From positions 372,001-436,000 of the forward strand of contig NZ_CP093342.1 in the NCBI RefSeq assembly GCF_022637555.1: a stretch of DNA of 64,000 nucleotides, written 5' to 3'. This document shows, in pieces, positions 1 to 62,400 of the stretch; within the stretch, counting starts at the first letter, position 1; each line of letters begins with the position of its first letter. The stretch is from Microbacterium sp. H1-D42. Lineage in GTDB: Bacteria; Actinomycetota; Actinomycetes; Actinomycetales; Microbacteriaceae. The notes under the pieces were generated by a model, which was given only the letters and a program-made list of their open reading frames with translations, made no database searches and had not been told where the DNA came from. A program made the translations under genes and the position numbers.

Positions 1-156
1 ATCCGACGCTCCGGTGCGCTGCTCGATCTTGAGTGGACCCGCGAACGCGGTCTCCATGGGCACCTGCTGGTCGAGCAGCATGCCCACCAGCAGCGCCAGC
101 GGGTTGTCGGTCAGCAGGGTGTCGGCGGCGGTGTCTCCGGTGATGTGAAGGGCCAT
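1..156 (-). CDS. HhH-GPD-type base excision DNA repair protein (N-terminal part)
   Basis: This is the first 52 codons of a minus-strand gene whose remainder lies to the left of the window. The start reads MALHITGD and is followed by an NPLALLVGMLLDQQVPMETA segment, which is the typical opening of the small actinobacterial HhH-GPD glycosylase-like proteins annotated as base excision repair proteins. The catalytic HhH-GPD part with its Lys/Asp residues is not in the window, so activity cannot be judged. It starts 64 bases past a large hairpin that separates it from the upstream MFS gene, so it probably has its own promoter in 157-219. Confidence 0.7.
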   Translation of the reverse strand, partial: MALHITGDTAADTLLTDNPLALLVGMLLDQQVPMETAFAGPLKIEQRTGASD

Positions 157-219
157 GCGTCCAGTGTCGCATCGAGCGGGGTGGCGCGGGGATGCTCGCG
201 CGGATGAGACAGCATCCGA

Positions 220-34560: not shown

Positions 34561-34585
34561 AGCCAGCCCACCCCCGCCACTCGCT

Positions 34586-34640
34586 CCCGTATGAGTTCTT
34601 GTCGCCTGCACGCCCTTCGAGCGACAGAAACTCATATGGG
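34586..34640. repeat. Long imperfect inverted repeat between two SDR genes
   Basis: Two 20-nt arms (34586-34605 and 34621-34640) match at 18 of 20 positions around a 15-nt loop. The arm contains CCCRTATGAGTT and ends GTCGC next to the loop. It lies 25 bases after one SDR stop and ends 36 bases before the next SDR start. It may be a terminator, but its words differ from the main REP-like family of this window, so a separate repeat family is possible. Confidence 0.6.
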
Positions 34641-34676
34641 AAGCAGTGCGGTTGCAGGACGAACCAAGGAGAGAAC

Positions 34677-35550: not shown

Positions 35551-35575
35551 CCGGCTCGCGCCCCGGGCTGTTCTA

Positions 35576-35666
35576 GTCGCAATTTCTCCCGCATCCGCAT
35601 CGCCGGTGCGGGAGAAATTGCGACCGGAATGACCCGGTCGGGTGTCGTTGCGGGAGAAAGTGCGAC
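35576..35666 (+). repeat. Composite REP-like repeat, copy A
   Basis: Left arm GTCGCAATTTCTCCCG (35576-35591), 17 nt, complementary arm CGGGAGAAATTGCGAC (35609-35624), 26 nt, then a second copy of that arm with one mismatch (35651-35666). The hairpin gains CA/TG pairs inside the loop. It lies between the convergent HSDL2-like SDR and trpF. Confidence 0.85.
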
Positions 35667-35687
35667 GGGAGGGGACACCCCGCCCGG

Positions 35688-43896: not shown

Positions 43897-43942
43897 GGCC
43901 GGGGCTTGGGCGCGGCCGCTTTCGCTCCAGCTGCTCATTCCG

Positions 43943-43991
43943 GTCGCAATTTCTCCCGCTCGCGTGGCTGCGCAACGGGAGAAATTGCGAC
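43943..43991 (+). repeat. REP-like repeat, copy B (hairpin only)
   Basis: Left arm GTCGCAATTTCTCCCG (43943-43958), 17 nt, complementary arm CGGGAGAAATTGCGAC (43976-43991); pairing extends outward four more bases (TCCG/CGGA). The third arm expected at 44018 is missing; the stop codon of the permease gene lies there. Located between the convergent aldo/keto reductase and permease genes. Confidence 0.85.
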
Positions 43992-44022
43992 CGGAGTGGC
44001 GTGAGCCCGGCCGGGTCGGGGG

Positions 44023-57791: not shown

Positions 57792-58670
57792 ATGCGCGTC
57801 GTCGATTCACATCTGCACCTATGGGACCCCGCTGTCCTCACCTACGACTGGCTCGAAGGGGCACTCGACGCAGCCTTCACCGAGATAGAGCTCATCGAGG
57901 ATCAGATCCAGGATGCTGAAGAGGAGGTCGCGATCTTCGTGCAGGCGGGGACCGTCGCGGGTGACTATCTGGCTGAGGTGCGCTGGGTCGACTCGATCGC
58001 TCTCTCCACCGGCGTCGTCGCGATCGTCGCCGGCGCCCGACTCGACAGCGGCGCCGAGATCGAAGAGCACCTCGAGGCGCTCGCCGAGCACGAGCGCGTG
58101 GTCGGGGTGCGCCACCTGCTGCAGGGCGAGGCGGACGGCTTCGCCCGCACGGCGGAGTTCACCGCAGGCGCCCGCGCCGTGGCATCCCGCGGCTGGACCT
58201 TCGACGCCTGCGTCAGCGCACGGCAGATCCCCGACGTCACAGCGCTCGCCGCGGCCGTCCCCGACCTGCGGATCGTGCTCGACCACCTAGGCAAGCCGGC
58301 CGTCGGCACGGACGACGCCCCGCTGCGCCCGAGTGCGGAGTGGCTGCGCGACATCGCCGATCTCGCGCAGCACCCGCAGGTGCACGTCAAGCTCTCCGGC
58401 CTGCCCGCCGAGGCGGGCGGGCACTGGGACGCCGACCAGGTGCGGCCGTTCCTCGATGCGGTGCTGACGGCGTTCGGCGAGGATCGGGTGATGTGGGGGA
58501 GCGACTGGCCCGTGTCGGCCATCGACTTCACCGCCCCCGACGGAGGCGCCTTCATCGAGGGCGGCCGCGACGACTGGTGCCGCACGGTGGCCGACTGGGC
58601 CGCGGATCGCGGACTCGACGTCGACAAGGTCCTCTGGTCGAACGCGCTGGCCTTCTACGGCATCCGCTGA
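57792..58670 (+). CDS. Amidohydrolase-family lactonase, L-fuconolactonase-like
   Basis: 292-residue TIM-barrel amidohydrolase (amidohydrolase_2). RVVDSHLHLWDPAVLTYDWL carries the first HxH metal motif. VGVRHLLQGEADGFA, IVLDHLGKPAVG and DRVMWGSDWPVSAID (final Asp) complete the pattern of L-fucono-1,5-lactonases and other sugar lactonases. A CAGGAT box lies 6 nt before the ATG. The sulfatase start overlaps its stop (TGATG). With the downstream fuconate dehydratase, hydrolysis of L-fuconolactone to L-fuconate is the likely reaction. Confidence 0.85.
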   Translation: MRVVDSHLHLWDPAVLTYDWLEGALDAAFTEIELIEDQIQDAEEEVAIFVQAGTVAGDYLAEVRWVDSIALSTGVVAIVAGARLDSGAEIEEHLEALAEHERVVGVRHLLQGEADGFARTAEFTAGARAVASRGWTFDACVSARQIPDVTALAAAVPDLRIVLDHLGKPAVGTDDAPLRPSAEWLRDIADLAQHPQVHVKLSGLPAEAGGHWDADQVRPFLDAVLTAFGEDRVMWGSDWPVSAIDFTAPDGGAFIEGGRDDWCRTVADWAADRGLDVDKVLWSNALAFYGIR

Positions 58671-60241
58671 TGAGCACGCCGACGTCGTCTCCGGTGCCGT
58701 CCTCGCAGGCCGGTCGCCCGAATGTCGTGCTGATCTGCGTCGACCAGTGGCGCGGGGACTGTCTGTCGGCAGACGGGCATCCGATCGTCCGCACGCCCTA
58801 CCTCGACGCGCTCGCCGCGCGCGGGGTGCGCTTCCGCAACGCCTACTCGGCGACCCCCACGTGCGTGCCGGCGCGGATGGCGCTGCTGACAGGGCTGTCG
58901 CAGGAGCGGCATCGCCGCGTCGGCTACCAGGACGGCGTCGACTTCGACATCGCCGAGACGCTGCCGCGCTCGCTCGCCGAGGACGGCTACCAGACGCAGG
59001 CGATCGGCAAGATGCACTACTCGCCCGAGCGGATCCGGATCGGCTTCGACGACGTGATCCTGCACGACGGGTACCTGCACCATTCGCGGTGGCGCGAGCG
59101 CGACCCGCGGTTCTACGACGACTACCTGACCTGGCTGCGCGCGCAGGCCGGCTCCAGCGCCGTCGATGACTATCTGGAGAACGGCATCAACTGCAACTCG
59201 GTGGTGGCGCGTCCGTGGGACAAGCCAGAACGACTGCATCCGACGAACTGGGTCGTGACCGAGGCGGAGAACTGGCTGTACCGGCGCGATCCCACCCGGC
59301 CCTTCTTCCTCTATCTGTCGTTCCACCGTCCGCACGCGCCGTATGACCCGCCTGCGTGGGCTTTCGAGCAGTATCTCGACGCGCCGTTCGAAGAACCGCC
59401 GGTCGGCGACTGGGTGGGCGAGTTCGCGCACCTGCGCAACGACGCCCTTCCGGATGCCAATGTCGCGCGCTACGACGCGCGCACCTCGCACCGGGCGCGC
59501 GCGGGCTACTACGGACACATCAGCCACATCGACGCGCAGATCAACCGCTTCCTCGAGATCCTGGCGGAGTTCGGCGTCGCTGATGACACGTACATCCTGT
59601 TCACCTCGGATCACGGCGACATGCTCGGCGATCACGACATGTGGCGCAAGGGGTACCCGTACGAGGGATCGGCGCGCGTGCCGATGATCCTCGCAGGCCC
59701 CACGATCGCGCCTGGACAGGTGAGCGACGACATCGTCGAACTGCGCGACGTGATGCCGACGCTGCTCGGCTGCGCCGACGTGGCCGCGCCCGATCTCGAT
59801 GGGCGCGATCTGCGGGCGACGGTCGGCGTGCGCGAGCCGGAGGCGTGGACCGGCGTGCCGCCGGCACCTGGTGTGGCGGGGACGGCTACGGCCGCGGCGT
59901 CGGCGTCGGATGCTGGGCGCGGGCTCTCCCCGGACGAGCCGCACCTGCACGGCGAGCACGTCATCCTCGGGCAGTCGATGCAGTGGATCCGGGCCGGTCG
60001 CTGGAAGTACGTCTGGCTGTCAGCATCCGGTCGGGAGCAGCTCTTCGATCTCGTCTCCGACCCCGGCGAACTGCGCAACCGCGTGCATGACGACGCGGCA
60101 TCCGAGGCGCTGCGCGCTTGCCGTGACCGCCTCATCGCCGACCTGCGCGGCCGGCCAGAGGGCTTCGTCGACGGCGACGCTCTGGTGCCCGGCCGTCCCG
60201 TGCAGGCGCTGCTCCCCGAGCAGCACGTCTCGCGCGCCTGA
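58670..60241 (+). CDS. Type I sulfatase (alkaline phosphatase fold)
   Basis: 523 residues. The formylglycine motif CVPAR (Cys65) lies in ATPTCVPARMALLTG. Metal residues are in NVVLICVDQWRGD (first Asp) and ILFTSDHGDMLGDHDM. HRPHAP and KYVWLSASGREQLFDL are also typical of S1 sulfatases. There is no signal peptide, so it acts in the cytoplasm, presumably on an imported small sulfated sugar. A formylglycine-generating enzyme is needed but not in the window. It is translationally coupled to the lactonase (TGATG). An Ala/Gly-rich insertion near residue 400 is probably a loop. Confidence 0.9.
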   Translation: MSTPTSSPVPSSQAGRPNVVLICVDQWRGDCLSADGHPIVRTPYLDALAARGVRFRNAYSATPTCVPARMALLTGLSQERHRRVGYQDGVDFDIAETLPRSLAEDGYQTQAIGKMHYSPERIRIGFDDVILHDGYLHHSRWRERDPRFYDDYLTWLRAQAGSSAVDDYLENGINCNSVVARPWDKPERLHPTNWVVTEAENWLYRRDPTRPFFLYLSFHRPHAPYDPPAWAFEQYLDAPFEEPPVGDWVGEFAHLRNDALPDANVARYDARTSHRARAGYYGHISHIDAQINRFLEILAEFGVADDTYILFTSDHGDMLGDHDMWRKGYPYEGSARVPMILAGPTIAPGQVSDDIVELRDVMPTLLGCADVAAPDLDGRDLRATVGVREPEAWTGVPPAPGVAGTATAAASASDAGRGLSPDEPHLHGEHVILGQSMQWIRAGRWKYVWLSASGREQLFDLVSDPGELRNRVHDDAASEALRACRDRLIADLRGRPEGFVDGDALVPGRPVQALLPEQHVSRA

Positions 60242-60373
60242 CCCGGCTGGGTGGCTCGCCTCCGGCATCCACCGCCTGCCCCGCGGCCGCCCGGCTCGGG
60301 GCTCCGCCGTGCCCGGCGACGACTGCCGGTCGTCTTACCCACCACAGTGTCATCCGTACGGACAGCTGCTCCG

Positions 60374-60464
60374 GTCGCAAATTCTCCGGCCTGAGCCGAC
60401 GACAGGCGGGAGAAATTGCGACCGCAATGGCGTGGGTGGACTCGCATGCGGGAGAAATTGCGAC
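60374..60464 (+). repeat. Composite REP-like repeat, copy C, downstream of the DUF559 gene
   Basis: Left arm (60374-60389) has two changes from the consensus; complementary arm CGGGAGAAATTGCGAC at 60407-60422, and the same arm again at 60449-60464. Spacings are 17 and 26 nt as in other copies, and the loop ends CCTG/CAGG also pair. The last arm ends 14 bases before the DUF559 stop codon. Confidence 0.87.
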
Positions 60465-60478
60465 CGGAGCGTCGGATG

Positions 60479-61444
60479 CTACGCGCGCAGCGCGTCCTGG
60501 ATGCGCGCGATCAGCTCGTCCGGGCGGCGGTATAGCGCGTCGGTGACTTCGATGACAGTCCAGCCCGCGGCGCGCAGGGCCGCGATCCGCTCGACGTCAG
60601 CGGCATAGCTCGCGTGATGGAGTCTGCCCTGGTACTCGATGGCGATTTTCAGAGATGGATAGGCCAAGTCGACGCAGCCCAGGAACCTGCCGTGCTGGTC
60701 GAAGACGTCTTGATTGAGCAGCGGCTCGGGCAGACCTGCCAGCACGATCCGGCACCGCAGCATCGATTCGCGCGGGGACCAGGAGTCCTCGCGGATCAGC
60801 GTGACTGCTTCTCTCAGCCGCCCGATGCCGACCCGCCTGCTGTTCGAGACGAGTGCGCCCAGCTCTTCCACAGTGGTCCATGGGGCTGTACCGACGAGCT
60901 TCCGACCGAACCCGGGCCGATGCACCCGGCAGAGGTAGTCGCCGAGGGCGACGAGGTCAAGCAGACCCAGCGACGCCGACTGCGCCCAGGCGATGCTCGG
61001 ATGCACGGCCGTCATCGCGCCTTTGCGAATACACGGAGTATCGGCGGAGATGCGATGCCCCTTGACGCCGACGGTGCGCACCAGCGGACCGGTGCCGCGA
61101 GTGCTGACGTGCACGGGTAGTGTGCCGCCGTCGACAGGTACGTCGTCCTCAAGCACGAGGGGGAGCGGGCCGCCGATCAGCGCGATGGCAGTCTCATGGC
61201 TGAAGAAGTGTTCCGGCCCGAGCCGCGGAGCGTAGTCGGATGCCCGGCTTTTGCGCTCGAATCGCTGTCGAGCGAAGGCATCAAGAGGGTTGTGGTCGGG
61301 CTCGTGCGGTCGAACGCGAACGCCTTGGAACGGCCGATCGAGGTCTGATCGATGAAGCCGGCCGCGGTTGACTCCCGCAGAGGTGGCTTCCTTCACCGTG
61401 AAACGTGTGCCGAGCTGCGCTGGTAGGGGGCGAGGGCGTGGCAT
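60479..61444 (-). CDS. DUF559 (Vsr-like) endonuclease-domain protein
   Basis: 321 residues. The N-terminal 45 residues (FTVKEATSAGVNRGRLHRSDLDRPFQGVRV) look like a small winged helix of the AbiEi antitoxin N-terminal type. The middle part has no clear family. Residues 222-318 form a DUF559/PD-(D/E)xK domain: SPRESMLRCRIVLAGLP, then CVDLAYPSLKIAIEYQG with Asp259, Glu270 and Gln272 at metal or catalytic positions, HHASYAADVERIAALRAAGW and VTDALYRRPDELI. It interrupts the fucose-type cluster and is bracketed by two direct copies of the composite repeat. AATCGT lies 6 nt before its ATG. A nuclease linked to repeat movement is inferred. Confidence 0.8.
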   Translation of the reverse strand: MPRPRPLPAQLGTRFTVKEATSAGVNRGRLHRSDLDRPFQGVRVRPHEPDHNPLDAFARQRFERKSRASDYAPRLGPEHFFSHETAIALIGGPLPLVLEDDVPVDGGTLPVHVSTRGTGPLVRTVGVKGHRISADTPCIRKGAMTAVHPSIAWAQSASLGLLDLVALGDYLCRVHRPGFGRKLVGTAPWTTVEELGALVSNSRRVGIGRLREAVTLIREDSWSPRESMLRCRIVLAGLPEPLLNQDVFDQHGRFLGCVDLAYPSLKIAIEYQGRLHHASYAADVERIAALRAAGWTVIEVTDALYRRPDELIARIQDALRA

Positions 61445-61511
61445 CCGCCCACGATTCCACCTTCGGCTCGTCTGTCGCCGCGGTTATCCACAACCCAAGT
61501 GCGGCGCTCCA

Positions 61512-61602
61512 GTCGCAATTTCTCCCGTTCACCCGGTGAGCGAACGGGAGAAATTGCGACCTGAATGGTGACGCGACCCGCCGAGGCGGGAGAAATTGCG
61601 AC
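61512..61602 (+). repeat. Composite REP-like repeat, copy D, upstream of the DUF559 gene
   Basis: Left arm GTCGCAATTTCTCCCG (61512-61527), complementary arm at 61545-61560, direct repeat of that arm at 61587-61602; spacings 17 and 26 nt. Pairing extends into the loop with TTC/GAA, giving a perfect 19-bp stem. It has the same orientation as copy C on the other side of the DUF559 gene. Confidence 0.9.
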
Positions 61603-61647
61603 CGGAAGGGCACAGACTGCAGCGGGCGGCTGCTGCCGCAGCCCGGA

Positions 61648-62400
61648 CTACTCCGAGCGGAGGCGCAGCGCGGCCATGCCGCCGTCGACCTCGATGAACG
61701 TTCCCGTCGTCGAACCGGACAGCGGGCTGACCAGGTACAGCACGGCGCCGGCGACCTCGTCGGGCGCGACCAGGCGGCCGTGCGGCTGGCGGGCGTTCAG
61801 CGCCGCGCGCTCGGCGGCGGGGTCCGCAGCCGAGTCGAGCAGACGACCGACCCACGGGGTGTCGGCGGTGCCGGGGTTGACGGCGTTGACGCGGATGCCC
61901 TCGCGCAGGTGATCCGCGGCCATGGCGCGGGTCAGTGCCGAGACGGCACCCTTCGACGCCGAGTACAGCGCGCGCTGCGGCAGGCCCGTCGTCGAGGCGA
62001 TGGATGCTGTGTTGCAGACCGCCGCCGAAGGCGACTTCCGCAGCCAGGGCAGAGCGGCCGCGGTCACGCGGGCGATGCCGGTGACGTTGATCGAGAGCAC
62101 GCGGGCCCACTCGGCATCGTCGTTCGCCGAGATGTCACCCTGGGCGCCGATGCCGGCGTTGTTGATGACGATGTCGATGCGCCCGAACTTTTCGGCAGCA
62201 GCTGCGACGGCGGCATCCACCGACTCGCGGTCGGAGACGTCGGCCGTGAACGCTGCGAAGCGCTCGTCGGCTCCCGCGATGTCGCGATCGAGAACCGCGA
62301 TCTGCGCGCCCTCGTCGTACAGCTTTGCCGCGACCGAGGCGCCGATGCCGGATGCTCCGCCGGTGACGATCGCCACCAGTCCGTCAAGCTGTCCGCTCAC
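61648..62400 (-). CDS. SDR oxidoreductase, probable sugar or 2-keto-3-deoxy-fuconate dehydrogenase
   Basis: 250-residue classical SDR: LVAIVTGGASGIGASVAAKL (cofactor), VLDRDIAG (acidic end, NAD preference), INNAGIGAQG, the NTASIASTTGLPQRALYSASK catalytic stretch and NPGTADTPWV. The GTG start overlaps the stop of the FAH-family gene (GTGA). With lactonase, dehydratase and FAH hydrolase nearby, it fits L-fucose dehydrogenase or, more likely given its coupling to FAH, 2-keto-3-deoxy-L-fuconate 4-dehydrogenase. Confidence 0.85.
   Translation of the reverse strand: MSGQLDGLVAIVTGGASGIGASVAAKLYDEGAQIAVLDRDIAGADERFAAFTADVSDRESVDAAVAAAAEKFGRIDIVINNAGIGAQGDISANDDAEWARVLSINVTGIARVTAAALPWLRKSPSAAVCNTASIASTTGLPQRALYSASKGAVSALTRAMAADHLREGIRVNAVNPGTADTPWVGRLLDSAADPAAERAALNARQPHGRLVAPDEVAGAVLYLVSPLSGSTTGTFIEVDGGMAALRLRSE

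Follow-up and report, generated by a model that had tools for sequence, protein, structure and literature searches.

What joins a nuclease gene to the repeats that stand on either side of it, and which of the two moves? The question is raised by a locus of Microbacterium sp. H1-D42, within a stretch of 64,000 nucleotides (NZ_CP093342.1, positions 372,001 to 436,000; this whole stretch is the window, to which plain coordinates refer), where a gene encoding a DUF559 protein of 321 amino acids (aa) is bracketed by two copies, C and D, of a palindromic repeat. An earlier note on this DNA had proposed that the palindrome-nuclease-palindrome unit is mobile and driven by the nuclease, in a manner comparable to the REP-associated tyrosine transposases (RAYTs), which are flanked by the repetitive extragenic palindromes (REPs) that they move. 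Homologous genes are found here to be bracketed by palindromes of their own, which follow a fixed 59-bp ruler and change together with the protein; dispersal of the palindromes is tied to the gene, with exceptions, the unit is polymorphic, and units and lone palindromes exchange. We consider it rather probable (about 60%) that these observations reflect a nuclease-palindrome system similar in its working to RAYT/REP and based on an unrelated enzyme, in which the nuclease would bind and cut the palindrome and repair would spread it, the dispersal by the nuclease being what we infer.

Bracketing of the nuclease gene by cognate palindromes

A protein search of 149 genomes of the same genus gave a match at E <=1e-10 in 138 of them. 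Two sets of loci were drawn from the matches listed: 40 close loci with 46-70% identity, which score best after that of the window, and 40 distant loci (33-42% identical), of which 20 were next in rank and 20 were picked lower. The 230 nt upstream of each gene were compared with the 230 nt downstream, a score of at least 40 being taken as bracketing. With the window included, 33 of the 41 close loci passed, as did 21 of 39 distant ones (one more ended at a contig edge), and none of 254 control genes drawn from the 40 close loci did, so that the association of this type of DUF559 gene with cognate repeats, suspected in the earlier note, is upheld. The repeats vary from species to species, yet the left and right copies of a locus match. 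Outside the genus but within the order, bracketing was examined in 18 loci and passed in 12; the nuclease profile has matches there in 188 of 297 genomes and 61 of 94 genera. A single-protein search of genome contigs gave nine loci, six of which were inspected by eye, and bracketing was also visible by eye at loci labelled Microbacteriaceae and Lacisediminihabitans. At one locus (L071) the downstream palindrome contains the stop codon of the nuclease gene, and a distant relative in Bifidobacterium avesanii (L185) shows, by eye, an inverted repeat of greater length immediately after the gene.

Protein and repeat similarity matrices correlate (Mantel rho 0.20, reached in 0 of 2000 permutations; 62 loci, with the contribution of relatedness still included). 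The repeats are alike in all 13 pairs of very similar proteins and in 1-3% of the pairs with a relative score below 0.5. The genome of the window (G000) has seven DUF559 matches, and only the gene at 60479-61444 is flanked on both sides by the window's repeat; the 89-kb paralogue, 37% identical, has another sequence repeated on both its sides (score 54).

Geometry of the palindromes

Palindromes of different lineages have little sequence in common and share a geometry: they start with YTC, end with GAR and span mostly 59 bp. This span was found for 49 of 65 palindromes in the close flanks (from 29 of the 41 loci), for 45 of 54 in a sequence-anchored count, for 30 of 45 at loci with repeats in another four genomes, and for 15 of 34 away from nuclease genes (597 kb), and ten rounds of mononucleotide shuffling rendered 14 palindromes in total, none of 59 bp. 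Among the 56 palindromes of the distant flanks, 21 span 59 bp and 14 span 49 bp, approximately one helical turn less. Palindromes shorter by about that length were noted at the distant loci L142, L144, L145, L146, L149, L155 and L178 (49 bp) and L179 (48 bp).

Within one genome the half-sites are conserved and the centre is variable, and the distance between half-sites is constant in 24 of the 25 copies having both anchors intact. The two arms do not covary within a copy in either of two genomes, G036 and G021; arm pairing is thus not visibly maintained by compensatory change, pairing being 0.822 against 0.842 for re-dealt arms in G036 (15 copies) and 0.896 against 0.891 in G021 (10 copies). 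The constant distance, the variable centre and the lack of covariation favour two half-sites that are read on duplex DNA rather than a hairpin maintained for pairing. Centre similarity within the flanking pair of one locus reaches at least 0.8 in 7 of 23 cases, compared with a fraction of 0.0045 of random pairs; since flanking copies share their centre above chance, duplication or conversion relates them in some loci. The downstream palindromes of L062 and L065, from two species, have an identical centre, CATTTCGTCGCGGAG, and different right half-sites, as if a half-site had been replaced in place, which seems to be the case.

Copy number and dispersal

The same 149 genomes were searched for four palindrome types, each derived from repeats that bracket a nuclease. 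An exact search for the type of the window gave 17 matches in G000, 5 in G033 and 2 in G071, and none in any other genome. Exact matches of the CTCMSGTATGAGTT type number 29 in G021, 28 in G036, 17 in G014, 5 in G000 and 4 in G108. With up to one mismatch, the TTCGAATCGCGCACTTTGC type is found 37 times in G074, 26 in G102, 8 in G130, and once or twice in each of three others; with up to two, the TTCACTTGCGCTGAACGTACG type is found 25 times in G049, 22 in G052, 14 in G101, 10 in G028 and once in G141. A single bracketed unit contributes up to 4 matches by itself. At least 5 copies are present in each of the seven genome-type pairs in which that type brackets a nuclease (G000, G021, G036, G014, G074, G130 and G049) and in 6 of the 589 other pairs (Fisher p 3e-13); apart from the unit, each of the seven has the palindrome at some 5 to 20 other places of its genome. 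One of the six exceptions is G033, the own nuclease of which is bracketed by a variant palindrome; in G071, with just 2 matches, a different variant of the window's type stands on both sides of the nuclease.

Presence, absence and stability of the unit

The SDR-family gene next to the unit in the window is present at 81% identity or more in 51 genomes. The unit adjoins it in 14 of these and is absent from that place in 35, the remaining two being unreadable at a contig end; relatives therefore have empty sites, as the earlier note had anticipated, and the gene is not a constant occupant of the orthologous position. None of the 35 has a nuclease match (E <=1e-5) in the fetched stretch, and 30 of them have a lactonase or sulfatase gene within 350 bp after the SDR gene. 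In G129, where the SDR and sulfatase are 93% and 84% identical to those of the window, about 67 bp separate the two genes, compared with 1406 bp in the window; two nuclease homologues are found elsewhere in that genome. Lone palindromes of the strict 59-bp form stand behind the SDR gene of G002, G052 and G115 (in the last of these a gene other than the lactonase comes next), and G117, G040 and G069 have, by eye, palindromes with another span or end. At this fucose-cluster junction, other species (L104, L106, L117, L118, L134) have, by eye, other repeat-like sequences, of the GTTGAGCGAGC...GAAACG and CTTCGACAGGCTCAGCGACC types.

Polymorphism extends to other places. A solo palindrome of G036 is absent from all 24 comparable loci: in 16 of them the corresponding place measures at most 39 bp, and in 8 it is filled by different sequence of 87-176 bp. 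A second intergenic position has, in each of G021, G014 and G064, the palindrome type of the resident nuclease, and measures 23-49 bp in six relatives. The gene order in G130 is pheT, an epimerase-like gene, the unit and an argC-like gene (names by Pfam), and that in G074 is pheT, the unit, the same epimerase-like gene, a lone palindrome and the argC-like gene, with flanks 78-86% identical to those of G130. The opposite placement, with a lone palindrome at one of the two positions, indicates mutual replacement of unit and lone palindrome.

On a tree of the 41 close homologues, the 14 at the SDR site require 4 changes of site label, compared with a mean of 11.9 after shuffling (0 of 500 shufflings as low). 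A freely hopping gene is therefore unsupported: the nuclease gene is mostly inherited in place and what moves is chiefly the palindrome, which brings the system closer to RAYT, with its stable enzyme and dispersing palindromes, than to a jumping gene. The nuclease-driven mobile unit of the earlier note is retained in this form for the palindrome, which the nuclease would mobilise, and largely given up for the gene. Two further candidates were discarded. The nuclease is not faster-evolving than all its neighbours, since at the shared site it is 51-70% identical to that of the window, compared with 84-92% for the SDR, 76-91% for FAH and 53-71% for the lactonase, which is equally diverged. A plasmid or phage gene was not supported either, as tblastn yielded three plasmid records and one phage record, every one below 40% identity.

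The protein, the locus and other palindromes of the window

The features of the window are collected in Table 1. The 321-aa protein probably consists of an AbiEi-like part fused to a nuclease of the Vsr/I-Bth0305I type; the separate N-terminal part described in the earlier note is thus kept, now as a probably AbiEi-like one. The DUF559 match is 21.1 bits, barely above the Pfam cut-off of 20.6, and six residues (E240, D259, E270, H276, D283 and R286) are invariant among 54 aligned homologues. The top structural match, by VIA-align re-scoring of the Foldseek ranking, is the catalytic domain of the homing endonuclease I-Bth0305I; no sequence relatives were found in PDB up to E 1, and PADLOC gives a single weak match, ZorE (E 0.018).

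Table 1. Coordinates of the unit, its neighbours and further palindromes
Feature	Position	Strand	Remarks
Nuclease gene	60479..61444	minus	321 aa; DUF559
N-terminal part, probably AbiEi-like	residues about 2-218		structural comparison
C-terminal nuclease, Vsr/I-Bth0305I-like (DUF559)	residues about 223-321
Palindrome C, 59 bp, interrupted	60369..60427	.	18/22 outer pairs; CTC...CAA, right end deviates from GAR
Extra half-site of repeat C, 22 bp	60448..60469	+
Palindrome D, 59 bp, interrupted	61507..61565	.	19/22 outer pairs; CTC...GAA
Extra half-site of repeat D, 22 bp	61586..61607	+
Motif TTATCCACA	61484..61492	+	TGTGGATAA in the gene's reading direction; ~50 bp ahead of the start codon
Sulfatase gene	58667..60241	+	neighbour outside the element; Pfam; start approximate
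SDR gene	61648..62391	-	neighbour, convergent with sulfatase; Pfam
Solo 59-bp palindrome, type of C/D	35571..35629	.	further half-site-like match at 35650-35667
Solo 59-bp palindrome, type of C/D	43938..43996	.
Solo 59-bp palindrome, other type (CTCCCGTATGAGTT)	34584..34642	.	type that brackets the G014 nuclease
59-bp palindromes, no matching bracketed nuclease seen	34584-34642; G000:C1:562906, 572459-572517, 3140033; L007:4024; L009:4051

Repeats C and D have the same orientation, as the earlier note had it, with 69 of 101 positions identical in direct and 53 of 101 in inverted comparison. What had been described as a repeat is restated here as two inverted half-sites with a fixed span of 59 bp, accompanied by a third half-site, and the distances of 14 and 67 bases given for the stop and the start of the gene are corrected to 9 bp (C, stop side) and 62 bp (D, start side), their closeness being confirmed. 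The assignment of the unit to a catabolic cluster also holds: it sits between the convergent sulfatase and SDR genes, the stop codons of which are 1406 bp apart, and an amidohydrolase-type lactonase gene and a FAH-type gene (Pfam) are found farther out. When one mismatch is allowed, the 3.66-Mb genome has 24 occurrences of the core GGGAGAAATTGCGACC, grouped into 11 clusters of which C and D are two; the reversed pattern, used as control, has none. The TTATCCACA motif is present within 130 nt upstream of the gene in 34 of 41 close and 6 of 40 distant homologues and in 0 of 337 control genes, and it resembles a DnaA box. Copies of the CTCCCGTATGAGTT type are located far from all DUF559 matches in the window's genome. 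This genome also has several further 59-bp palindrome sequences for which no matching bracketed nuclease was seen there, and they look as if they were older cohorts of past enzyme specificities.

A proposed mechanism and its alternatives

If the nuclease disperses the palindrome, the probable AbiEi-like part would bind the half-sites in double-stranded form, probably with a dimer reaching across the 59 bp, and the C-terminal nuclease would nick or cut at or near the palindrome ends. Repair would copy palindromes to new places and homogenise existing ones. The unit itself would move rarely, and could collapse to a solo palindrome, or arise from one, via recombination between the flanking copies.

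Palindromes without a nuclease weigh against this proposal. Five genome-type pairs (G000 for its second type, G102, G052, G101 and G028) have 5-26 copies and no nuclease bracketed by them, and in the last four genomes 41 copy loci were retrieved, none of which showed a gene of the DUF559 family. These orphans, part of which occupies orthologous places, speak most strongly against a simple rule, and the idea of the earlier note that repeat number tracks the gene, which holds in all seven bracketed pairs, fails in these five; an old loss of the nuclease may explain them. Decay of the palindrome after such a loss, hinted at by G102 (10 of 26 matches exact), was inconsistent in the fourth type and was dropped. 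The existence of orphan families also favours an explanation in which an unseen other enzyme disperses the palindromes and the nuclease gene has been caught between copies, or uses them as operator or terminator. Such autoregulation would resemble that of AbiEi proteins, which bind inverted repeats in their own promoters (in excerpts of PMC7319586), and 4 of the 9 copies in the window's genome are placed between convergent genes, which also speaks for it. Yet palindromes stand on both sides of the gene, co-change with the protein and have a copy number tied to the bracketed gene, and dispersed species-specific copies would not be needed if promoter sites alone were at work. RAYT was rejected as the mobiliser, PF01797 being found in just 1 of the 149 genomes, and not in G000. 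We therefore regard a passenger role of the nuclease as quite unlikely.

It can also be the case that the protein is a selfish nuclease of the homing type, with the solo palindrome as its target, into which the unit is copied by recombination after cleavage, while something else spreads the palindromes. The structural match to I-Bth0305I is consistent with this, and so are the shared centres of flanking pairs and the lone palindromes found where relatives have the unit (G074 compared with G130; G002 and G052 at the fucose junction; G117 and G040 by eye, with another span or end). Classical homing genes, however, split their target, whereas here a whole palindrome is left on each side and would remain cleavable; moreover, the gene is mostly passed on vertically at a single site, and the arrival of palindromes at unrelated places is left unexplained, so that homing appears unlikely. 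Finally, Vsr/DUF559-type nucleases occur in restriction-linked proteins, and the enzyme might attack invading DNA, with the palindromes serving to mark or regulate the genome of the host; with ZorE as the sole and weak PADLOC match, and with neighbours that are catabolic or housekeeping genes, a defence function is highly improbable.

Comparison with known systems

The spread of small palindromic repeats in bacteria has been worked out, incompletely, for RAYT/REP (excerpts of PMC8266576). There, two cognate palindromes flank the RAYT gene, enzyme and palindrome co-change, presence of the gene is tied to palindrome abundance, and the gene has a stable place (excerpts of PMC2817692). DUF559 genes with flanking palindromes are not described in the open literature searched, which comprised few subscription papers or preprints and included accessible parts of PMC8266576, PMC2817692, PMC7319586, PMC11879112 and PMC3733652. 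The parallel with RAYT drawn in the earlier note is borne out in that flanking by two cognate palindromes (33/41 close homologues, 0/254 controls), co-change and the link between gene presence and palindrome abundance are all present here; as to the rate of evolution, the nuclease evolves faster than the SDR and FAH and not faster than the lactonase. The enzymes are different, a Vsr-like PD-(D/E)xK nuclease here and a HUH/Y1 tyrosine enzyme in RAYT, and the palindrome is here mostly a fixed unit of 59 bp (or 49 bp) with YTC and GAR ends. The GTAG foot, a feature of one REP group, was looked for up to 12 nt outside and 6 nt inside the ends of 33 palindromes and was found at none of them; a control tetramer was absent as well. 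Copies number tens, in contrast to usually more than 100 per genome for REP (excerpts of PMC2817692).

With the homing endonucleases of the I-Bth0305I/Vsr-like kind the protein shares the fold, and it differs from them in its intergenic place between whole palindromes and in its extra N-terminal part of about 200 residues; classical homing genes usually reside in an intron or intein. AbiEi type IV antitoxins (AbiE) differ in that the probably AbiEi-like part is here fused to a nuclease and the repeats are dispersed genome-wide, and in that the flanking genes of the window encode a sulfatase and an SDR (Pfam) and no AbiEii nucleotidyltransferase toxin. In integrons, the attC sites ('59-base elements') also place a gene beside imperfect palindromes of similar size.

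On a broader proposal we are evenly divided: that a widespread class of palindrome-dispersing AbiEi-Vsr/homing-type fusions exists in Actinobacteria, each with a lineage-specific pair of half-sites at a fixed 59 bp (49 bp in some distant members), older cohorts recording past specificities. If true, this would explain the species-specific repeats across a large group of Actinobacteria and would supply a large natural set of nucleases with their recognition sites, from which a recognition code could be deciphered. It would also make these fusions a second, unrelated enzyme family with the logic of RAYT/REP, a convergent evolution of palindrome-dispersing systems that would be reached through duplex recognition and nuclease-templated repair, and not through the single-strand chemistry of HUH enzymes.
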